Below, in pieces: positions 2,561 through 48,524 of a stretch of 51,659 nucleotides of DNA. The notes beneath the pieces were generated by a model. That model was not told the DNA's origin. It did not search any database and saw only the letters and a list, made by a program, of their open reading frames with translations. Origin of the DNA: Phycisphaerae bacterium (GTDB taxonomy: Bacteria > Planctomycetota > Phycisphaerae > UBA1845 > PWPN01); contig JAAYDF010000237.1 of NCBI GenBank assembly GCA_012729395.1, positions 1 to 51,659 of the forward strand, in the 5' to 3' direction. Numbering within the stretch: position 1 is the first letter of the stretch; every line of letters begins with the position of its first letter. The translations under genes and the position numbers were made by a program.

Positions 2561-5284
<2,724 letters not shown>

Positions 5285-8253: not shown

Positions 8254-10704
8254 ATGAGCGGCGTACCAGGACAACAGCCAGTGGGCCGACAATTGGCCGG
8301 GCGGTGGCAAATCCCGCTGCTGGCGGTGGCGACTGTCCTGCTCGCGGCCGGCTTGTGGCGTCTGCGGCCCGTTCCTCAACCGCCGACCTTCGACGATCTC
8401 TTTGCCCGCGCGGTGGCCCTCCACGAGTCCTCACTTTATCCCGAAGCGAGCGCTTACATTGGGGAACTACTGGCGAAGCCGGACCTCGATGACGCTCAGC
8501 GCCGTCGGTTGCACTCGCTGATGGCCCGCGTGATCTACGCTCACGAGCTGGGCAACGCGGTTCACGGCGTGGTGAACGCCCAACGCATCATCGAGCACTG
8601 CGACGCCGCTCTGGCGGAAGGCGAGCAGGACGATGTCCCGACCCTGCTGATGCGGGCCCGTGCCTGGGAGTGGCAGCAGTTGGGTGGGCGGGCGGTGGCG
8701 GCGTATCAGCAGGCTGTGGCGGCGGGCGCCGAGCACCCCTGGCGGATCCGCAAACGGATCATCGAGATTCAACGGGAGACAGATCAGGCAACGCCGGAGT
8801 GGCTTGTGGGTGAGTTCGAGGCGTTCGTGGTTGGCGAGGGTGTCGAAGAGGAGCTGCGTTACTGGGCCGCGGAGCAGAAGGTAGATCTGTTAGCCGCGGA
8901 AGGTCGGCACGCCGACGCGGAGCAGTTCCTCGCCCAGCACGCGGAGCGGTTCAAGGGGAGCACGGTCCAGGGCCAGTACGACTACCTTCAGGCACTGGCC
9001 CTTTTCCATTTGCGGCAGTTCGACGAGGCGGAGCGGTTGCTGCGTGTGGCGCGGGACGCTCTCGTACCGGGCCAGCCGTTGTACGCCAAGACCGGGTGGT
9101 TGCTCGGGCGGATCATGCAGGCGTATGAGTCGCCTCAGCCGGCGGTGTCGTTTTTCGACGACGTAGTGAGCCGGACTACGCCCAGCCCATACCGCACGCT
9201 CTCGATTCTGGGGCGTGCCGAGGCGCTCGCGTCCCTCGAGCGGTTTGACGAATCGCTGGCGGCGTTCCACGAGGTGCTGCGGCTGGTGTCCGAAGACCCG
9301 TATGCGGGTCAGGTTGACCTGCAGGTGGTTCGGCAATCGACGACGAGCTTGTACGAAGCGTTACGGCAGGCGGGCCGGTTGCCCGAAGCGATGGCCTACC
9401 TGCGAATCGCGGCCCGGTTGGCCCCGCCTGGGGATGACCGGTTGCAGGCTATCTACACGGAGCGACTGGCGGCTCTGGCGGAGGCACTGGGGCAAAGGTC
9501 GCTCGCCCTGGCGGAAGGGCGAGATGAGGGCGGTGCTCCGGCGGACCGGGACGCGGTTCGCCAGGAGGCTCGTGACCATCTCATCGAGGCTGCGGAGCAT
9601 TATCTGCAACTGGCCAAGCTGACCACGTTGGATGTGGCAGCCTCGACCACGGCGGCATGGAAGGCGGCGGACGCGTTTGATCTGGCGGGCGAGCGGAGCC
9701 GGCGGGCGTCGGTGCTCGAAGCGTTCATCCGCGAGCGGCCGGACCACATGCGGGTTTCCGAGGCGATGCTGCGGCTCGGCCTGACCTACCAGGCGATGGG
9801 CGAGTACGCTCAAGCGATCGCGGCTTACCAGCGCAACTTGATCGAATACCCGCGAACGTACTGGGCGACGCAGTCGCTGGTTCCACTGGCTGAGTGTTTC
9901 ATCGACAGCCGTGAACCGGATAAGGCAGAGCAGACTTTGCTGCGCGTAGTCGATCGCCAACCTGGGGACGATCTGGCGTTGATCGAGCCGGCCGCCCCGG
10001 AATACCGGGACGCGCTTTTTCAACTGGGCGATCTCTACATCCAGTCGGAGCGATACGAGCAGGGCATCGCCCGTTACGAGGAAGCGATCGAGCGGTATCC
10101 GGAGGATCGGCGGGCGGACCGTGCGACCTTCATGCTCGCCGAGGCCTATCGTCGCAGTGCCGCCCAAATCCGCGAGGACCTGAAGGATCCCAAGAAACTG
10201 GCCCACAAGGATGAGTTGAAAGTCGTGCACCTGCGCCGGTTGGCAAGGGCTCAGGAGTTGTATCAGCAAGTGATCGAGCGTTATCGAGGCCGGTCGGAGG
10301 AAAGCTTGGCGGACCTGGATCGGCTGTACCGCAAGCTGAGCCATTTCTACCGGGCGGACACGATCTACGACCGATCGTATGTACTGGACGCGGGTGACTA
10401 CCGGCCGTTTATCGAGGCTCTGCGCGAATACGACGAGGCCGCCTGGCTGTACCAGTCCGATCCGATCGCGATGTCCGCCTACGTGCAGATGATCAACTGC
10501 CATCTGCGGATGGGCAACGTGTACGAGGCCCGCAAGACGCTGCAGCGCATGTCGTGGGCGTTGCGGAATATCCCCGATGAGCAGTTCGAGCAGTATCTAC
10601 CGCAGGAGGGGCGACCGTTTTGGGAGGAGTACCTGTCGTGGCTGGGCCGGATGCCCATGTTCTCTGCCGCTGACGGCGAGCAGGACAGTCGACAAGCGGG
10701 ATAG
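8254..10704 (+). CDS. Membrane-anchored TPR-repeat protein
   Basis: This protein of about 816 residues has a short cytoplasmic N-terminus, one membrane segment (about residues 20-36, IPLLAVATVLLAAGLW) and then a long helical region built of tetratricopeptide-like repeats, for example AIAAYQRNLIEYP, GIARYEEAIERYPED and ALREYDEAAWLYQSDP. The bulk probably sits on the outer side of the membrane as a protein-protein scaffold. No catalytic motif is visible. It begins a co-directional run with the FlgN-like gene 20 bases downstream and the two-component pair, which suggests a link to flagellar assembly, but that is inference. ATG 8254 has GGGGAG 6 bases upstream; ATG 8224 in the same frame is the alternative. 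Confidence 0.8.
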   Translation: MSGVPGQQPVGRQLAGRWQIPLLAVATVLLAAGLWRLRPVPQPPTFDDLFARAVALHESSLYPEASAYIGELLAKPDLDDAQRRRLHSLMARVIYAHELGNAVHGVVNAQRIIEHCDAALAEGEQDDVPTLLMRARAWEWQQLGGRAVAAYQQAVAAGAEHPWRIRKRIIEIQRETDQATPEWLVGEFEAFVVGEGVEEELRYWAAEQKVDLLAAEGRHADAEQFLAQHAERFKGSTVQGQYDYLQALALFHLRQFDEAERLLRVARDALVPGQPLYAKTGWLLGRIMQAYESPQPAVSFFDDVVSRTTPSPYRTLSILGRAEALASLERFDESLAAFHEVLRLVSEDPYAGQVDLQVVRQSTTSLYEALRQAGRLPEAMAYLRIAARLAPPGDDRLQAIYTERLAALAEALGQRSLALAEGRDEGGAPADRDAVRQEARDHLIEAAEHYLQLAKLTTLDVAASTTAAWKAADAFDLAGERSRRASVLEAFIRERPDHMRVSEAMLRLGLTYQAMGEYAQAIAAYQRNLIEYPRTYWATQSLVPLAECFIDSREPDKAEQTLLRVVDRQPGDDLALIEPAAPEYRDALFQLGDLYIQSERYEQGIARYEEAIERYPEDRRADRATFMLAEAYRRSAAQIREDLKDPKKLAHKDELKVVHLRRLARAQELYQQVIERYRGRSEESLADLDRLYRKLSHFYRADTIYDRSYVLDAGDYRPFIEALREYDEAAWLYQSDPIAMSAYVQMINCHLRMGNVYEARKTLQRMSWALRNIPDEQFEQYLPQEGRPFWEEYLSWLGRMPMFSAADGEQDSRQAG

Positions 10705-10724
10705 CCAGAAGTGGGAAGTGCAAA

Positions 10725-11210
10725 GTGACCACAGAGCAACCTACAAGCGGTGAAGGCGTGACCGGTGCCGGGGTGGACGCGATCGTGGCCCTGCTGACGG
10801 GGCAACGGGATATTTACTCTGAGTTGTTGGCCTTGGGGCGTTCGCAACGGGCTCTGATCACCGGGAACGAGCCGGAGCGATTGTTGGCCCTGTTGGCCCA
10901 GCGGCAGCAGTTGATCGACCGGCTGGAAATGCTGGCGGCTCGGTTGAAGCCCTATCAGCAGGACTGGGCAGGCTGGCGGTCGGCGATGTCGGACGAGCGG
11001 GGCGAGCAGGTGGACCGGCTGGTGACGGAGGTGAATGCGCTCCTGGGCCAGATCCTTGCGATGGACACGGAAGATTCGCAGTTGTTGGCGGCTCGCAAGA
11101 GCGCGACCGGTGACGCGATGCAGACGTTGAAGACCGGTCGCCGGGCGGGCGCCGCCTACGCTGTAGCGGCGTATTCGCAGGTCTCGGGGACGGATTGGGC
11201 GGACGCATGA
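10725..11210 (+). CDS. flgN: FlgN-like flagellar export chaperone
   Basis: This is a small all-helical acidic protein of 161 residues with a heptad-like pattern (LLTGQRDIYSELLALG, then LLALLAQRQQLIDRLEMLA). The family keeps hook-associated proteins FlgK and FlgL soluble and delivers them to the export gate. Length and the LL-x-RQ-LI-RL pattern fit FlgN. Sequence conservation in this family is low, so position next to flagellar regulators carries much of the weight. The start is GTG 10725 with GGGAAG about 6 bases upstream. Its stop overlaps the ATG of the kinase gene (ATGA at 11207-11210), implying translational coupling. The last residues are unrelated to known motifs. Confidence 0.6.
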   Translation: MTTEQPTSGEGVTGAGVDAIVALLTGQRDIYSELLALGRSQRALITGNEPERLLALLAQRQQLIDRLEMLAARLKPYQQDWAGWRSAMSDERGEQVDRLVTEVNALLGQILAMDTEDSQLLAARKSATGDAMQTLKTGRRAGAAYAVAAYSQVSGTDWADA

Positions 11211-41832: not shown

Positions 41833-43518
41833 ATGGCCACGCAGTTGCACATCGATGAGGAATACCGCGGCGTTTTGGCGTCGGCCGGCTTGGCGGGTTT
41901 TGAGCAGGTCATGGCCGCGCGTATGGGTGCTCCGGTGAGCGTGCGAGGCGCCCGGAGCACGGTGCGGCTGACGGTGACCGTCGATGGCCGATCGCGGGAG
42001 CTGTATCTCAAACGCGCGTTCAAGCACGCGACGCGTGCTTTGCTGCGGGAGTGGCTGCGGGGCCGACGGCCGCAGGCTGAGCCGACGCGGGAGTGCCGGC
42101 TGGTCGCCCGGTTGTCGGCGAGAGGTATCCGGACAGCTCGCGTCGTGGCCTGGGGGGAACGCAGCCGCTGGCTGGGCCCCGTGGCGGCGTTCGCGATGTT
42201 CGAGGCCGTGCCGGGAGCCTTCTCGCTGGACGAAGTCCTCGAGGTTCGGCCTGGGTCGCCGCCGCTGACCTCCGTGCGACAGCGGAGACGCATTCTGGCC
42301 GACTTGGCCGAGCTGGTGCGGCGGCTGCATGACGCTGACTTGCGATGGCCCGAGCTGGTTGCCAAGCACATCCTGGTTGCGTTGCCGGCGTTAAGCGGCC
42401 CGGCGCCGCGGCCTGACGGGGGTGGCGCGGTGGGTGGGTCCGATCGCTGCACGGATTGCCCGCGGCTTTGGCTGGTGGGCGTGACGCGGATGCACGCGAG
42501 CGGCTCGGCTCGGTTGCGGGTGCGGAATTTCGTTTCCTTGTTGCGCTCGATACCGGCAGACAGTCTGAGCCGGGCGGATTTGTTGCGGTTTGCGTTTGCC
42601 TATGCCCGGATTGCCGATCAGCCCTGGCGGCAACAGAAGGAGGTTCTTGCCCGCGACTGGGGTTGGGCGGCGAAGCTGTGGGGGCGAGCGCGTCGAGAGG
42701 CGACCTTCGCGGGATCAGCGGGCTACGAGCCGGGCAGGTGCGTGAAGCTCGGCAGTATCCGGGTGGATGAGAGGTATCTGGCGTTTCTTGGCTCGCGTGG
42801 CGTCACCACGTTCGACGCCGTCTTCAAGTGGCAGCCTGCGGAGATGGCGACCGTCTCGGCGAACGGCTCGGGCGTGCGGTTCGAGCTTCCGGGGCCGGGC
42901 GACGAGCCAATGATTCTGCGGCTTTACCGCTTTGATCGTCCGCGTTTGGCGGATCAGTTCCGGCGAATCGTGGTGGAACGGGTGACCAGGAGTTCGGCGG
43001 GGCGGCTGTGGCGGAGAGCGGCGAAACTGCACAAGGCGGGTGTGTCAACGGCGTTGCCCGTGGCGTACGGTGAGAAGATGCGGGGGTGGTGGGAGCGGCG
43101 GAGCTTCGTGCTGTTTCGCGAGCCGCCGGGACTCAGCGTCCGCAGCTTGGCGGGGTCACCCGACGGCCGGCTCGCAACCTCGGCTCGCCGGGCAGCGGTG
43201 CGGCGATGCGGGGCTCTGCTCGGTCGGCTGCATAAGGCGGGGTTGCGATATGGCGGCAGGGCGGCTGACGGGCTGATATTGTCCGAGGTGGCAGCGGGGG
43301 AGTTGGAGCCCTGCTGCCCGGACCCGGGGGCCTTGGTTGCCTGTCGTACCGCGGATCGGTCGAGGGACGTGGCGGATCTGCTTGCCGTCGCGGGAGGCCT
43401 TGGGCTTAGCCGCACGGACCTTTTGCGGTTCGCGCGCCCCTACCTGGGCTCCGAGGCGTCCAAGGCCGGCGTCAGGTCATTGATCGAGGAAACCGGGCGT
43501 GCGGCAGGCCACAGGTAA
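41833..43518 (+). CDS. Tandem WaaP/Kdo-kinase-like protein, probably catalytically dead
   Basis: This 561-residue protein has two lipopolysaccharide-kinase-like domains in a row. Domain 1 (residues ~20-230) has LYLKRAFKHATRAL with the nucleotide Lys, a C-helix Glu (TRECRLVARL), and RRLHDADLRWPELVAKHILV in the catalytic loop. There the usual HRD-like Asp is Glu, and the second metal Asp is Gly (LWLVGVTRMH). Domain 2 (residues ~300-540) has MILRLYR, with Arg for the Lys, and LHKAGLRYGGRAADGLIL in the loop. Both copies therefore appear degenerate (inference from alignment by eye). WaaP-family enzymes phosphorylate heptose; this one is more likely a scaffold or binds an LPS-like or peptide substrate. 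It is 135 bases upstream of the peptide operon. Confidence 0.72.
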   Translation: MATQLHIDEEYRGVLASAGLAGFEQVMAARMGAPVSVRGARSTVRLTVTVDGRSRELYLKRAFKHATRALLREWLRGRRPQAEPTRECRLVARLSARGIRTARVVAWGERSRWLGPVAAFAMFEAVPGAFSLDEVLEVRPGSPPLTSVRQRRRILADLAELVRRLHDADLRWPELVAKHILVALPALSGPAPRPDGGGAVGGSDRCTDCPRLWLVGVTRMHASGSARLRVRNFVSLLRSIPADSLSRADLLRFAFAYARIADQPWRQQKEVLARDWGWAAKLWGRARREATFAGSAGYEPGRCVKLGSIRVDERYLAFLGSRGVTTFDAVFKWQPAEMATVSANGSGVRFELPGPGDEPMILRLYRFDRPRLADQFRRIVVERVTRSSAGRLWRRAAKLHKAGVSTALPVAYGEKMRGWWERRSFVLFREPPGLSVRSLAGSPDGRLATSARRAAVRRCGALLGRLHKAGLRYGGRAADGLILSEVAAGELEPCCPDPGALVACRTADRSRDVADLLAVAGGLGLSRTDLLRFARPYLGSEASKAGVRSLIEETGRAAGHR

Positions 43519-43653: not shown

Positions 43654-45087
43654 ATGCGGGAGACGACTGCGACGATGGCGTTCATGGCTAGCAAGACGAG
43701 CATATTATCGGGCGTTGCCATCGAGGATACGGCAGCGGCACCTTGCAGCGTCGAAGGAGCGATTTCCACGTTCCATTTTCGCGATGTGGTGGGCCTGCGC
43801 AATCTCCGCATGATGCATTTTCTGGAGCGGGTGGCCCTGCGTTTCAACCGGGCGGGTGTGCCGTTGATGGTGCTCAAGGGGGCGGCCCTGAATCTGACGC
43901 TGCATGATGACCCGGGCGCCCGGCCGATGGGCGACCTAGATCTGCTGATTCGGCCGGAGCATGTCCAGCAGGCGGTGCGGATCCTCGAGGCTCTCGGCTG
44001 TCGGTATGGCGAGCCGCTTCTGCGGGAAGACTTCTTCCCCCGTTTTCACTACGAGCGTGAGCTGAACGCTGGGGTGATTCACCCGGTGCGGATTGATCTG
44101 CACGTCCGACCGTTTCGACCGTTGCGATACGCGCGGATCATGCCCGCCGAGGCCTTCTGGCAGCGGGCACGGTCGGTGCGGATGGGCCGGGCGCGGGTGT
44201 TGGTGCCGTCGGTGGAGGAGATGCTGATCCACTTGGCGGTTCACTCCGCGGTGCACGGTCACGGGCGGGCGTTGTGGCTTGAGGACATTCGGCAATGGGT
44301 GGCCTGTCACGGGGACCGGCTCGACTGGCGTCGGCTGCTGGATACGGCGCGGGCGTGGGGTTTGACTTGGCCGATGCGGTCGGGGCTGCGTGCGGCGGCG
44401 GGTGAGGCGGGTTCGCTTGGCCCGGACTGGGTGTGGGCGGAGTTGGACGCGAAGCGGGCGGGCTGGCGGGATCGGCTGGCGTTGTGGCATGCGCCGCGCG
44501 ATGCGATCTGTCCGTTCGGGCAGGTGCTGGTCAACGCGCTGTGCACACCGGGCCGGTGGTTCGTGCTGGCTTACCTGGCGGCGGTGATGTTGCCCGGGCG
44601 GACGCATATGGCCGACTGGTACCCGCGGCGCCACCGGGGCTGGTTGGCCACTGCGTACCTCTTGCGGGCGACGGCACCGGTGCTGCGTCGGATTCCCGGT
44701 CTGTGGGCTTGGTTGAACCGCGTGGAGACGCGTCCGAGCCGCGGCCAGGGCTTGGGCGTATTCGCGTTGGGCAACTTCCGGCCGGGCGAAGTGATCATCG
44801 GGGGCCAAGTGCGGTCTGATGGTGGGCGACTGCGTCATCTCACTCACTCATGCCGTCCGAACGCCCGGCTGGCGGGGGCGGAACTTGTGGCCCTCAAGAC
44901 CATCCTGGCCGGTCAGGAAATCACCGTCGATCACGGCGAGCATGCGTGTTCTTGCCGCAGACAATCGGCGGAGGACCGCAACGAGCAGCACCGGTTTCGG
45001 GGAGACCGCCAACAAGTTGGCTCGGTCCAACGCCAACAAGTTGGTTCGGTCCAACGCAGCGACAATGTGTCTCGGTCCGGCAGATAG
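43654..45087 (+). CDS. PF14907-type nucleotidyltransferase fused to a mini SET-like domain
   Basis: The first ~330 residues match the 'uncharacterised nucleotidyltransferase' family PF14907: VPLMVLKGAALNLTLHDDPG, RPMGDLDLLIRPE with the metal-binding Asp pair (near residue 93), IDLHVRPFRPL and PSVEEMLIHLAVHSAVHGHG. Members of this family next to HprK-like kinases are known in lasso-peptide clusters. Residues ~365-435 are unlike that family: GLGVFALGNFRPGEVII, HLTHSCRPNARLAG, KTILAGQEITVDHGEHACSC. These match SET-domain landmarks (GxGVFA, NHSCxPN-like, GEExTxDYG-like, Cys-rich end), but the middle is much shorter than normal. The tail has two near-identical QQVGSVQR units. GGGGAGG lies just before ATG 43654 and is tightly spaced; ATG 43675 or 43684 are alternatives. 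The next gene starts 12 bases after the stop. Confidence 0.8.
   Translation: MRETTATMAFMASKTSILSGVAIEDTAAAPCSVEGAISTFHFRDVVGLRNLRMMHFLERVALRFNRAGVPLMVLKGAALNLTLHDDPGARPMGDLDLLIRPEHVQQAVRILEALGCRYGEPLLREDFFPRFHYERELNAGVIHPVRIDLHVRPFRPLRYARIMPAEAFWQRARSVRMGRARVLVPSVEEMLIHLAVHSAVHGHGRALWLEDIRQWVACHGDRLDWRRLLDTARAWGLTWPMRSGLRAAAGEAGSLGPDWVWAELDAKRAGWRDRLALWHAPRDAICPFGQVLVNALCTPGRWFVLAYLAAVMLPGRTHMADWYPRRHRGWLATAYLLRATAPVLRRIPGLWAWLNRVETRPSRGQGLGVFALGNFRPGEVIIGGQVRSDGGRLRHLTHSCRPNARLAGAELVALKTILAGQEITVDHGEHACSCRRQSAEDRNEQHRFRGDRQQVGSVQRQQVGSVQRSDNVSRSGR
45008..45055 (+). repeat. Two 24-bp direct repeats at the end of the nucleotidyltransferase gene
   Basis: GCCAACAAGTTGG[CT]TCGGTCCAAC occurs at 45008-45031 and 45032-45055, with one base difference. 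Each copy encodes QQVGSVQR-like residues, so the gene carries a tandem in-frame duplication in its C-terminal tail. Each unit contains the palindrome CCAACAAGTTGG. Confidence 0.88.
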
Positions 45088-45099
45088 GAGGCCGATTTC

Positions 45100-45600
45100 G
45101 TGAACCAGCCACCCCCATCGCAGGATAAGCACGTACCGGCGGCATCGTTGACCACGTCGGCAGAGCACGCGTCGGCGGATCCACTGACCACGTCGGCAGG
45201 GGGCGCGTCGGCGGATTCGCGGGCGGTGCCGGCAGGGGGCACGTCGGCGAGATCGCCGGCGGTCCCGGCAGAGAAGGCGTCGTTGCCGCCGACACCGCAA
45301 AAGTCCGCCGCGTGCTCGGACACATCGGCTGCTGACGCGTCATCGGTGCGGACCAGTCGAAGGAGTTTCCTCGGTGGTGCGGGTCGCAAGGCGTTGTATG
45401 TGACGCCGGCGGTGTTGACGCTGGCGGCTCGTCCCGCGGCGGCCTCGGGCTTCGAATGCGGCTCGCAGTTCAAGCACACCATCGGTTCGCCCTGCGATGA
45501 CACGGGGGCGGGCAAGGACTGCTGTCCAGTGGACCACTCTGGCACTCCGATGGACTGCGTTGACCCAGGCGACGGCAACAAGGTATGCACGGCACTGTAA
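45100..45600 (+). CDS. Tat-signal six-cysteine peptide with a repetitive leader; candidate precursor
   Basis: This 166-residue protein has three parts. Residues ~15-80 are a low-complexity Ala/Ser/Thr/Pro leader with repeats of ~15 residues (LTTSAGGASAD, RAVPAGGTSA). Residues ~86-115 are a twin-arginine-type signal (SRRSFLGGAGRKALYVTP, then LAARPAAASG). The ~50-residue mature part has six cysteines (FECGSQ, GSPCDD, GKDCCP, MDCVDP, NKVCTAL), enough for three disulfides. I found no clear homolog. Placement directly upstream of a VKOR-DsbA enzyme and with PqqD and HprK genes makes it the best candidate substrate of the operon. GTG 45100 has AGGAGG 8 bases upstream; a shorter start at GTG 45347, just before the Tat motif, is possible but lacks a ribosome site. 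Confidence 0.75.
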   Translation: MNQPPPSQDKHVPAASLTTSAEHASADPLTTSAGGASADSRAVPAGGTSARSPAVPAEKASLPPTPQKSAACSDTSAADASSVRTSRRSFLGGAGRKALYVTPAVLTLAARPAAASGFECGSQFKHTIGSPCDDTGAGKDCCPVDHSGTPMDCVDPGDGNKVCTAL

Positions 45601-45614
45601 AGGTGTAGACGGCT

Positions 45615-47180
45615 ATGACCAGACTGAGTGTGTCTTCCGAGGCCATGAAGGCCTGCCGACAGGATGCCGGTGTCGGTCGCGTTGCCGGCCGAGCGTTGAT
45701 TGCTCGTCATGGTTTCCTGCCGGCGGTCGTTCTGGCTCTGGTGGTACTGGGTGCTCTGCTAAGTGGCGAACTGGTCAAGCAGCATGACAACATCTGGGGC
45801 GATTCGGAGGCGAAGCATGGTTGGTGGGCCGGTTTGTGCGAGGCGGCGGCACCGCTGGGCCTGAGCTGTACGCAGGCGAGCAAAGGGCGTTGGTCGGAGA
45901 TTCGCCTGCCGATGCCGGTCTTGGCCAGGGGGTATCGGCCCGGCTTGGGGATGACGCGGGTGCCGGTCGCCTTTCTGGGTTTGGCGTACTTCGTCTGTCT
46001 GGCGACTTGGTTCCTCATGGTTGGGGCAGGTTTGCCGCCCGGGGGGATCTGGCATCGCGTGCCGCTGGCTCTGACGGCGATGGGCGCTGCCGTGTCGTGC
46101 TTCTTCCTGGTGCTCATGGCGGCAGGGTTCGCCCCGCGATGCTTGCTGTGCGTGCTTGTGCACGGGGTGAATCTGCAGCTGACGGCGGTGGTGTGGGGAT
46201 GGCGTTGGGGCAAGCGGGATACCGCCGAGGCCGGTGACTGTGTGAGGTGGTCCTCGGATCGCAGCGGTGTTGCAGACGCCGGCCGCCACGGGGGGCGGCC
46301 GCTACGGATTGGGTGGGATGGTGGTTCGCGGGTTGAGCGGGCCGACGGTTTGAGGCTTGAGCGGGGGCATTGGCTCCAGGCGATCCGAGCGATGGTGGTG
46401 GCGTTGGTGCTGGTGGGTGGGCTGTGGGTGTATCGCGGCGAGCACTTGGCGTTCAAGGAGCACCGGGCGAAGTTGATGCTCTACAAGACGCTGGTCACGG
46501 CCCTGCGAAACGACAAGGCCTTCCTCTTGCGCGAGCATCTGGCGGAGCCCGTGCAGTGGGCTCAGGCGGCCGTTGCGCTGCCGGTTTCTGATAACCCGCA
46601 ACTGGTGATCTTCAGCGATTACGATTGCCCGAACTGTGCGTGCGGGGCCAATCGGATCGTGGACAACGCGCGGCAGGCGTTCGGCGAACGGCTCGAAGTG
46701 GTTGTGCGGCATTATCCGTTGTGCGGCACCTGCAATCCGCACGTTCAATCGACGGCTCGGGTCGGAGCCTGCCAAGCGGCATTAGCGGCGGAAGCGGCTC
46801 GCCTGCAAGGCGGCGAAGAGGCCTTTCGCCTGATGCACGAGCGGTTGTTCATGCGGCGGCAGGGGCGTGATCGCGAATCGCTGGCCCGGCTGGCGGAGGA
46901 GTTGGGGCTGGATCGCGAGCGGTTCCTGGCGGATCTGGAGGGCGACGCGGTGCGGCGGACTGTGGCCCAGCATGTGGCCCTGGCGCATGCCTGGGGGGTT
47001 CGCGGCACGCCGGCTTTGTTCTTCGAGGGCCGACGGGTGAACCGGCAGTTCGAGGGGCCTGCGTATTGGGAGGCGCTCGCGGAGAACTGGCGGCGGGATG
47101 ACGGCACGGCAACCGCGCTGACGCAACGTGGGTTGACGCCGCGGGCCAGGAATGGGGGAGATGCCGATGGACGCCGATGA
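45615..47180 (+). CDS. VKOR-DsbA fusion disulfide-bond-forming enzyme
   Basis: This is a membrane enzyme of 521 residues. The N-terminal ~210 residues form a VKOR domain with four to five membrane helices. The redox pair lies in PRCLLCVLVH (near residue 176), and an outer pair is in GLCEAAAPLGLSC. A linker of about 60 residues follows, then another membrane helix (MVVALVLVGGLWVY). The C-terminal ~230 residues are a DsbA-like thioredoxin domain with the CxxC FSDYDCPNCACG (near residue 337) and cis-Pro RGTPAL (near 463). VKOR reoxidises the DsbA domain using quinone, making disulfides in exported proteins. The linker contains a GTAGCGGCCGCC-family hairpin in frame (46278-46305), encoding GVADAGRHGGRPLRIG. 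It starts 14 bases after the peptide gene. Confidence 0.9.
   Translation: MTRLSVSSEAMKACRQDAGVGRVAGRALIARHGFLPAVVLALVVLGALLSGELVKQHDNIWGDSEAKHGWWAGLCEAAAPLGLSCTQASKGRWSEIRLPMPVLARGYRPGLGMTRVPVAFLGLAYFVCLATWFLMVGAGLPPGGIWHRVPLALTAMGAAVSCFFLVLMAAGFAPRCLLCVLVHGVNLQLTAVVWGWRWGKRDTAEAGDCVRWSSDRSGVADAGRHGGRPLRIGWDGGSRVERADGLRLERGHWLQAIRAMVVALVLVGGLWVYRGEHLAFKEHRAKLMLYKTLVTALRNDKAFLLREHLAEPVQWAQAAVALPVSDNPQLVIFSDYDCPNCACGANRIVDNARQAFGERLEVVVRHYPLCGTCNPHVQSTARVGACQAALAAEAARLQGGEEAFRLMHERLFMRRQGRDRESLARLAEELGLDRERFLADLEGDAVRRTVAQHVALAHAWGVRGTPALFFEGRRVNRQFEGPAYWEALAENWRRDDGTATALTQRGLTPRARNGGDADGRR
46278..46305 (-). repeat. GTAGCGGCCGCC hairpin inserted inside the VKOR-DsbA gene
   Basis: The reverse complement of GCCGGCCGCCACGGGGGGCG plus GCCGCTAC equals the intergenic element at 20811-20838 over ~27 bases. 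It sits in frame in the linker between the VKOR and DsbA domains, adding about nine residues rich in Arg/Gly. This suggests a mobile palindromic repeat that inserted without breaking the gene. Confidence 0.85.
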
Positions 47181-47634
47181 ACATGGCGCGCTGGGGGCTG
47201 AGGCGTGCGAAGGCGTGCACGCGCTCCGCAGTGCTCGCAGAGCAGTGCCACACGAGGCGTGTGCGTGCGAAAGCACTGCTCAGAGAGCGATGGAGCGTGG
47301 CTGCGGGATGGGGATGGAGACGGAGATGGAGCCGCCGAGGTGGACGGCACGTGCGGCGGCGATCGCGGCGCCGCGTCGGCGGGCGGATCTGGTCGAGGAT
47401 GAACTGGACGGCGAGGCCATCCTCTCCGACGTGCGGACGGGCGGTATTCATCGGTTGAACGAGACAGCGCTGATCGTGTGGCGGTGGTGCGACGGCCGGA
47501 CGACCACGCTTCAGATCGCCCGGGGCCTGACGCGGCAATATGACGTCGGTCTGGAAATCGCGCTCGACCATGTCGAGCAGCTTCTGGTCTTGTTCGCCGA
47601 GGCCGGGCTGGTGGAGGTGGAAGCTTCCTCATGA
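47167..47634 (+). CDS. PqqD-like peptide chaperone
   Basis: The last ~100 residues match the PqqD/RiPP recognition element fold: LVEDELDGEAILSDVRTGGI, HRLNETALIVWRWCDG, LQIARGLTRQYDV, and ALDHVEQLLVLFAEAGLVEV. PqqD-family domains bind leader peptides and present them to modifying enzymes. ATG 47167 has GGGGGAG 6 bases upstream and overlaps the VKOR-DsbA stop; it yields a 155-residue protein with a Cys/Ala/Glu-rich extension. Starts at 47290, 47314 or 47326 are also in frame and would give a normal ~100-residue PqqD. The extension is partly encoded by a hairpin repeat (47240-47281), which weakens it. The stop overlaps the next start (ATGA at 47631-47634). Confidence 0.82.
   Translation: MDADEHGALGAEACEGVHALRSARRAVPHEACACESTAQRAMERGCGMGMETEMEPPRWTARAAAIAAPRRRADLVEDELDGEAILSDVRTGGIHRLNETALIVWRWCDGRTTTLQIARGLTRQYDVGLEIALDHVEQLLVLFAEAGLVEVEASS
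47240..47281. repeat. GAGCAGTGC...GCACTGCTC hairpin in the PqqD N-terminal region
   Basis: GAGCAGTGC (47240-47248) pairs perfectly with GCACTGCTC (47273-47281), enclosing a nested palindrome CACACG-AGG-CGTGTG. The element lies within the longest reading frame of the PqqD gene, before the conserved domain. It may be an intergenic repeat if translation starts downstream, or a hairpin that inserted into the coding region. Confidence 0.75.
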
Positions 47635-48524
47635 TCGCTCTGCGGCGTGAACCACGGGTGACTGCAAGCGGCTGCGAGGCGTGCTTCGCGATCGGGCCGG
47701 TGAGCGTGGTCGTGCGGAGCGATCTGCCCGAGATACTGGAGGATTTCGCTGGTCTGTATGCCGACGCTCGCGTCGATCAGCCGACCACCGAGCCGATCAT
47801 CCGCATGGAGGTGCGGGCGGTGCGCTCGGGATGGATGCGGCCGACGCGCTACGAGATCTTCGGCGACGGTCGGTCGCTGTGGACCGCGGATCGGCCGCGC
47901 GAGGTGTTGCCCTACATCGAGTGGGGCATCAACTGGCGGGTGATCGAGCGTTGTCCGGGGTATGTGCAGGTGCACGCGGCGACGCTGGTGCGTGATGGGC
48001 AGGGTTTGCTGCTGGCGGCGGATTCCGGATCGGGCAAGTCGACGCTGGCGGCCGGTCTGCTGGCTCGCGGGTGGGGGTATCTGTCCGACGAATTCGCGCT
48101 GATCGATCCGGTCGACCTGAGCATGCACGCCCTGCCCAAGGCCCTGTGCGTCAAGGCGGGGGCGTTCGACGCGGTCCGTGAGATCGGCTTACCGCTGTGG
48201 CGTGGTCGGCACTACGTGAAAGCCCTCAAGGGTTGCGTGGGCTACATTCGCCCAGCCGACATCCGCCCCGATGTGGTGGCTGCGGCGGCGCCCATTCGCT
48301 GGATCGTCTTTCCGCAGTACCTTGCCGGCTGCCGACCGCGGTTGCTGCCTGTGTCGCGGGCGCAGGCGCTGTTCACGCTGGCCGCGGGCACACTCAATCG
48401 TCACATCTTCGGTCACCAGGCGGCCGCCATCCTTCGCCGCGTCGTGACCACTGCCTCGTGCTATCGGTTAGAGGCGGGGTCGCTGGACGCGACCTGCCGG
48501 GTGCTGGGTGAGTTGGCGGGGTAG
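47631..48524 (+). CDS. HprK-like P-loop serine/threonine kinase
   Basis: This 297-residue protein resembles the HPr-kinase-related proteins found in peptide-modification clusters. An N-terminal ~120-residue domain (PVSVVVRSDLPEILEDF; PTTEPIIRM) precedes the kinase core: VQVHAATLVRDGQGLLLAA, P-loop [17 protein letters not shown] (near residues 130-137) and YLSDEFALIDPVDL. The rest is a mixed alpha/beta region (PIRWIVFPQYLAGC) with an NRHIFGH stretch. HprK relatives in lasso-peptide clusters phosphorylate a C-terminal residue of the precursor. No HPr protein is encoded nearby, so carbon-catabolite control is unlikely. ATG 47631 overlaps the PqqD stop, and it is the last gene of the operon. Confidence 0.82.
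   Translation: MIALRREPRVTASGCEACFAIGPVSVVVRSDLPEILEDFAGLYADARVDQPTTEPIIRMEVRAVRSGWMRPTRYEIFGDGRSLWTADRPREVLPYIEWGINWRVIERCPGYVQVHAATLVRDGQGLLLAADSGSGKSTLAAGLLARGWGYLSDEFALIDPVDLSMHALPKALCVKAGAFDAVREIGLPLWRGRHYVKALKGCVGYIRPADIRPDVVAAAAPIRWIVFPQYLAGCRPRLLPVSRAQALFTLAAGTLNRHIFGHQAAAILRRVVTTASCYRLEAGSLDATCRVLGELAG

Follow-up and report, generated by a model that had tools for sequence, protein, structure and literature searches.

We asked whether five adjacent genes on a 51,659-nucleotide contig of a Phycisphaerae bacterium (JAAYDF010000237.1; this whole stretch is called the window below) act together on a peptide. A preliminary description of this DNA had read them as one operon encoding a nucleotidyltransferase-SET protein, a secreted six-Cys protein with a twin-arginine translocation (Tat) signal, a VKOR-DsbA fusion, a PqqD protein and an HprK-like kinase. 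The five co-directional open reading frames (ORFs) lie where that description placed them; gaps of 12 and 14 bases separate the first three, and the two junctions that follow overlap by 29 and 4 bases (Table 1). The assignments to PF14907, VKOR-DsbA, PqqD and HprK-like kinase also held, whereas the SET domain turned out to be degenerate in the window copy. Our analysis makes it probable that the operon is a peptide-modification pathway, guided by a recognition element for ribosomally synthesized and post-translationally modified peptides (RiPP recognition element, RRE) and acting on a Tat-exported precursor. What we computed directly comprises genetic linkage, leader specificity, gene fusions, the family of the RRE, its covariation with the leader, and the co-occurrence of knotted tails and VKOR-DsbA.

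Kinase homologues were detected at E<=1e-3 in 32 of 61 relatives, 28 of these matches being strong and full-length or nearly so. A search with the family alignment found the kinase in 64 of the 114 genomes examined in the order and in 19 of 382 drawn across the phylum. Neighbourhoods were taken from the relatives and from 80 named loci, partner genes were placed by hidden Markov models (HMMs), and removal of near-duplicates left 78 Planctomycetota loci. A precursor was identified in 65 of these 78, nearly always near PqqD, HprK and nucleotidyltransferase genes; several of the 13 other loci are interrupted by contig ends or assembly gaps. The PF14907 transferase gene adjoins the others in most relatives. 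The peptide gene thus stays beside its partners in relatives; the preliminary description had named the lack of such conservation as one outcome that would refute it. Searching 61 whole genomes for the leader gave strong matches (E<1e-6) in 27 of the 28 kinase-bearing genomes and in none of the 33 kinase-free ones (Fisher, 2e-16). Since strong matches are confined to kinase-bearing genomes, the leader is not a generic Tat signal, and this search led us to reject a generic Tat protein lying beside unrelated genes. In one genome (G011) the leader and the kinase lie on different contigs (C67 and C10), each at an end, as would fit a cluster that the assembly broke in two.

The 166-residue precursor of the window matched no family in a domain-library scan; a plasmid search with it as query returned zero matches and comparison with PHROGs gave no significant match. 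Its sequence reads RTSRRSFLGGAGRKALYVTPAVLTLAARPAAA-SGFECGS...CTAL and contains, in this order, a twin arginine, a hydrophobic stretch with YVTPAV, the triplet AAA and six Cys arranged C-C-CC-C-C. It is 62% identical over 69 residues to the precursor of a related locus, L032, and is the sole match to the leader HMM in its own genome (E=2e-14). The twin arginine and the Pro of YxxP were both invariant in a 26-row leader alignment. The leader as a whole has the form of a twin-arginine signal, RRxFL…AxA, with YxxPxV inside its hydrophobic core; counting from the Pro, Ala occurs at P+10 in 80% and at P+12 in 100% of the Cys-type precursors and forms the AxA site. A genome search found TatC, and the sequence features of a Tat substrate (twin arginine, hydrophobic stretch, AxA and tatC in the genome) are all present. 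We predict that a single leader element is put to two uses, as a twin-arginine signal and, through YxxPxV, as an RRE-binding motif. It is the leader, not the tail, that is conserved in the precursor family. The six-Cys core was considered in this role and rejected, as the tails are Cys-free in 35 of the 65 relatives.

Three different enzyme partners are tied to the precursor by in-frame fusions. When frames were read from stop to stop, the precursor shared an open frame with the C-terminus of HprK in L035, L051, L065, L141 and L174, with that of PqqD in L058 and L161, and with that of the nucleotidyltransferase-SET protein in L060. The HprK fusions cluster as one group on the kinase tree, and an internal start could additionally yield free precursor from fused genes. 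At L060 (2030-5172) the divergent nucleotidyltransferase-SET-precursor fusion and a second PqqD gene lie opposite a VKOR-PqqD-HprK set, and an additional small Cys-rich ORF is found at 4729-5172. L161 has two PqqD genes in its cluster (9558-10235 and 10419-11147), of which one carries the precursor fusion.

The PqqD reading frame of the window starts with about 80 residues of uncertain N-terminus ahead of the domain. Compared with solved structures, the PqqD family profile matched TfuB1 (5e-9), TbiB1 (5e-8), LppB (1.6e-6) and PbaB1 (2.5e-6), and a Foldseek search with a modelled fusion ranked TbiB1 and TfuB1 at the top, both solved with leaders bound. The domain therefore shows what is expected of an RRE of the lasso or linear polyphosphorylated peptide (LPP) type: a winged-helix PqqD fold nearest to leader-binding RREs, with a conserved leader pocket. 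The LppB residues that contact the leader include Asp70, which bonds its Tyr, and Asn33, which fixes its kink at the Pro (PMC13381572). The Asn aligned to LppB Asn33 was kept nearly always, and in all 38 rows of the alignment used. Where the leader has Tyr, the position aligned to Asp70 was acidic in 30 of 41 systems, compared with 2 of the 21 systems with other leaders (p=2e-6). Of the four leaders with Lys, three occur with an Asp aligned to Asn33 and one with Asp retained at the site of Asp70. The window itself pairs a Tyr leader with His at the Asp70-aligned position.

The 65 precursors fall into two tail types, 35 being Cys-free and mostly very short, and 30 carrying a C-C-CC-C-C core. 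Most Cys-free tails (25 of 35) end in Ser, for example PSS or GVSATS. The C-C-CC-C-C framework is found in all 30 Cys-type precursors listed, most commonly with the spacing 6-5-0-4-4. A local VKOR-DsbA gene accompanied 23 of the 30 Cys-type loci and none of the 35 Cys-free loci (Fisher, 9e-12); manual assignment was used for three of the 23: L060, where the fusion lies on the other strand, L075, truncated at the start of its contig, and L158, interrupted by a gap. Two Cys-free loci placed inside a mostly Cys-type group, L033 and L150, likewise have no VKOR-DsbA. The protein of the window (Pfam DSBA 2e-17, VKOR 7e-8) is unique in its genome at E<=1e-15. The tail is predicted to be a cystine knot with three disulfides. 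It resembles knottins, or inhibitor cystine knots, in its six Cys and their C-C-CC-C-C order, and differs from them in being bacterial, in standing behind an RRE/Tat leader and, in the window, in its looser spacing; Pfam knottin models match the precursors only below their cut-offs. An AlphaFold model of the Cys tail gave low confidence on the question of the 1-4, 2-5, 3-6 knottin pairing. Taken with linkage, co-occurrence and fusions, the association of VKOR-DsbA with Cys tails supports well the joint action on the peptide that had been proposed for the operon genes.

More distant planctomycete loci (L198, L200 and L201) combine the trio with RRKFLK...YxxP-type leaders, but their tails belong to neither type: that of L198 has a Cys-Pro repeat and those of L200 and L201 are Gly-rich. 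The precursor family is therefore wider than the two types counted. Genome G027 has a second precursor (L209:4886-5434), in which the same leader precedes a double Cys knot; the surrounding 10.5 kb gave no match to kinase, RRE or transferase, and this precursor may be modified in trans.

Among NCBIfam models, HprK-related kinase A is the best match to the kinase of the window, at 182.4 bits where the cut-off is 200. The active-site residues of the kinase are conserved. In search of the residue on which it might act, we scored Ser positions in the precursors. Of the 65, 59 have a Ser in the stretch from P+13 to P+15, compared with 11 and 14 for two control leader stretches, and 19 of the 30 Cys-type precursors have it exactly at P+15; in LPP the phosphorylated Ser3 sits at P+15 (PMC13381572). 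Paeninodin is phosphorylated at its C-terminal Ser (PMC8498205), a precedent that the Ser-ended Cys-free tails fit. In the pathway that we propose, the YVTPAV segment would be bound in the cytoplasm by the PqqD-type RRE, presenting the precursor to the HprK-like kinase, which would phosphorylate a Ser, most likely close behind the AxA site. Our prediction for the PF14907 transferase is that it would then extend this phosphate by attaching a group. The modified precursor would be exported by Tat through the same leader and cut behind AxA by signal peptidase, and outside the cell the operon VKOR-DsbA would form three disulfides in the C-C-CC-C-C core. We infer phosphorylation and its site, the transferase product, the use of Tat, cleavage and the pairing of disulfides.

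Several observations weigh against this reading. The window precursor has no Ser at P+15 and does not end in Ser; its nearest Ser residues are at P+13, the first residue after AAA, and at P+19, so that the phosphorylation site of its core cannot be called. Its Cys spacing of 11-8-0-10-9 is looser than the family norm. Seven Cys-type loci have no local VKOR-DsbA, five of them being kinase fusions; another VKOR-DsbA or DsbA-like gene is found elsewhere in most genomes. Both associations are correlational and include shared ancestry, with four to five independent changes each: on the kinase tree the tail type switches four times, and the leader/RRE correlation rests on about five changes, none of either kind in the opposite direction and too few for significance. 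AlphaFold models of natural fusions of PqqD or HprK to the precursor were confident for the domains and of low confidence for the placement of the leader on the RRE and of the tail in the kinase. Finally, deletion of the transferase had no effect on LPP in the test host (PMC13381572).

The same data bear on three other explanations. The kinase, RRE and transferase might make or attach something else, for example on a cell-surface polymer or on another protein, with the small Tat protein as a separate exported partner or receptor of that product instead of a substrate. Such enzymes can indeed serve without a precursor, since proteobacterial PqqD-HprK-nucleotidyltransferase trios near hemA, prfA and prmC (L097-L137, in Thiobacillus, Massilia, Sulfuriferula and others) had none in the 5 kb searched, and some planctomycete clusters have glycosyltransferase genes nearby. 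We nevertheless regard this explanation as quite unlikely, as the precursor is fused to all three enzymes, its YxxPxV motif covaries with the RRE and its leader is confined to kinase-bearing genomes. It is likewise unlikely that the leader serves as a membrane anchor that is never cleaved, or as an RRE leader alone, with RR and AxA serving kinase docking and the product staying on the membrane or leaving by another route. In favour of this view, a folded kinase or RRE domain precedes the leader in some fusions, where a Tat signal would be unusual, and tails of 3-7 residues would make very small secreted products; opposed to it are the invariant RR, the hydrophobic stretch, AxA at fixed spacing and the presence of TatC, and the Cys-knot tails with VKOR-DsbA, which indicate a non-cytoplasmic compartment.

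Small Cys-rich proteins are common in planctomycetes, and operon proximity by itself can mislead. That the precursor is an ordinary secreted protein of this kind, beside unrelated enzymes by chance, is highly improbable all the same given the co-occurrence (27/28 versus 0/33), dozens of conserved clusters and three kinds of fusion.

How do these systems relate to those already described? The LPP system, reported in 2026 from the lpp cluster of Paenibacillus alginolyticus and described as restricted to Bacillota, combines a discrete RRE, an HprK-like kinase and an NTP (nucleoside triphosphate) transferase without a cyclase; its leader motif is YxxPxVLxHQxIxFETxxS and its cluster includes a SipW-like signal peptidase and an MsbA-like exporter (PMC13381572). 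The planctomycete systems share the discrete, clustered PqqD-type RRE, HprK-like kinase and NTP transferase, the absence of a cyclase, and a conserved leader with YxxPxV before a variable C-terminus, with Ser at P+15 in most Cys-type precursors. They differ in host phylum (Planctomycetota versus Bacillota), in a leader that has RR and AxA and not HQxIxFETxxS, and in adding a C-C-CC-C-C core with VKOR-DsbA (in a subset) and precursor-enzyme fusions. No SipW-like signal peptidase was found in the operon or adjacent genes, and no MsbA-like exporter in the operon, nor was either among the 25 commonest neighbour families listed for 21 relatives. A dedicated signal peptidase, an MsbA exporter and the remainder of the leader motif were thus looked for and not found, and LPP is described as confined to Bacillota; for these reasons we kept the operon apart from LPP proper; the planctomycete systems appear to be a new branch of this recently described family.

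Phosphorylated or phosphoglycosylated lasso peptides (paeninodin, pseudomycoidin, Bsf) have leaders with [Y/W]xxPx[L/V]; their RRE speeds the HprK-like kinase, and in pseudomycoidin the nucleotidyltransferase adds hexose to the phosphate (PMC8498205, PMC10368454). The planctomycete operons resemble these systems in RRE, HprK-like kinase, nucleotidyltransferase and YxxPx[V/L] leader, and differ from them in the Tat-type signal and in having neither lasso cyclase nor B2 cysteine protease. A lasso cluster with an overlooked cyclase was rejected, as no cyclase or B2 protease was found among operon or flanking genes, in agreement with the preliminary description, nor among the 25 commonest neighbour families listed. 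The HPr-rel-A families (TIGR04352, kinase A; TIGR04353, PqqD) show the same trio order, PqqD-HprK-nucleotidyltransferase, in Proteobacteria and some planctomycetes, but both window proteins score below the NCBIfam cut-offs (kinase as above; PqqD, 17.7 versus 35 bits).

The preliminary description had further suggested a distinct class. The combination without a cyclase is partly anticipated by LPP (PMC13381572), while the Tat-type leader and the knotted core with VKOR-DsbA in a subset do set the planctomycete systems apart. We tentatively propose, with slightly less than even confidence, a separate RiPP class of Planctomycetota in which the leader would be both RRE dock and Tat signal. Phosphorylation and the transfer of a sugar or nucleotide in the cytoplasm would thereby be coupled to the export of a phospho-modified cystine-knot peptide, which a dedicated VKOR-DsbA would complete outside the cell, and a sister type would release tiny Ser-rich phosphopeptides. 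The literature collection searched held no papers on HprK with PqqD in planctomycetes or on Tat with PqqD RiPPs. If the proposal is true, a natural-product family of Planctomycetota would have been found by its anatomy and not by the hallmark enzymes that mining tools seek. An RRE leader doubling as a Tat signal would tie modification to export, and bacterial phospho-modified knottins would be suggested. The natural fusions to kinase, RRE and transferase offer ready test proteins for the hand-over of a peptide from RRE to kinase, and the clusters give context for their nucleotidyltransferases, a product of which we found described for one lasso peptide only.

A working SET methyltransferase, as the domain name in the preliminary description would imply, found no support in the window. 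The Pfam match is weak (E=2e-5; score 25.4 bits, cut-off 22.4) and, compared with L032, 22 mid-domain residues are gone, NHSC has become THSC and the Tyr of DYG is His. On these motif losses and the deletion we rejected an active enzyme, and the SET domain of the window copy is probably dead. The SET domain behind the transferase looks intact in L032, L034, L060, L063, L069, L071 and L093.

Table 1. Positions of the operon genes and their elements in the window.
Feature	Position	Strand	Basis
Nucleotidyltransferase, PF14907 (NTP_transf_5), with degenerate C-terminal SET	43654..45087	+	Pfam E=3.4e-40; GDLDLL metal-binding motif (D-x-D)
Degenerate SET domain	44722..44961	+	22-residue deletion, NHSC to THSC and DYG to DHG relative to L032
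AGGAGG ribosome-binding site	45086..45091	+	Sequence; 8 nt upstream of the precursor GTG start
Precursor protein, 166 aa	45100..45600	+	ORF; leader HMM match E=2e-14
Twin arginine of leader, residues 87-88	45358..45363	+	Invariant in 26-row leader alignment
YVTPAV, predicted RRE-binding motif YxxPxV, residues 100-105	45397..45414	+	Pro invariant; motif common to LPP/lasso leaders (PMC13381572); RRE covariation
AAA, predicted signal peptidase site, residues 113-115	45436..45444	+	Ala conservation in Cys-type precursors
Predicted mature peptide SGFECGS...CTAL, six Cys C-C-CC-C-C	45445..45597	+	Identical six-Cys order in L032
VKOR-DsbA fusion	45615..47180	+	CLLC in VKOR part, CPNC in DsbA part
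PqqD-family RRE (domain ~47413-47613)	47152..47634	+	Pfam E=6e-13
HprK-related kinase	47631..48524	+	SGSGKST P-loop, His115, Asp153-Glu154

Promoter and terminator scans gave no more than shuffled sequences did. Upstream of the five-gene cluster are a flagellar region and the gene for a sigma factor; just upstream and on the same strand, 41833-43518 encodes a protein with two Kdo/WaaP-type kinase segments. Two stretches look like recent low-complexity expansions, namely 24-bp repeats at the end of the transferase gene (45007-45078) and imperfect 36-bp tandem repeats in the N-terminal extension of the precursor (45158-45282).

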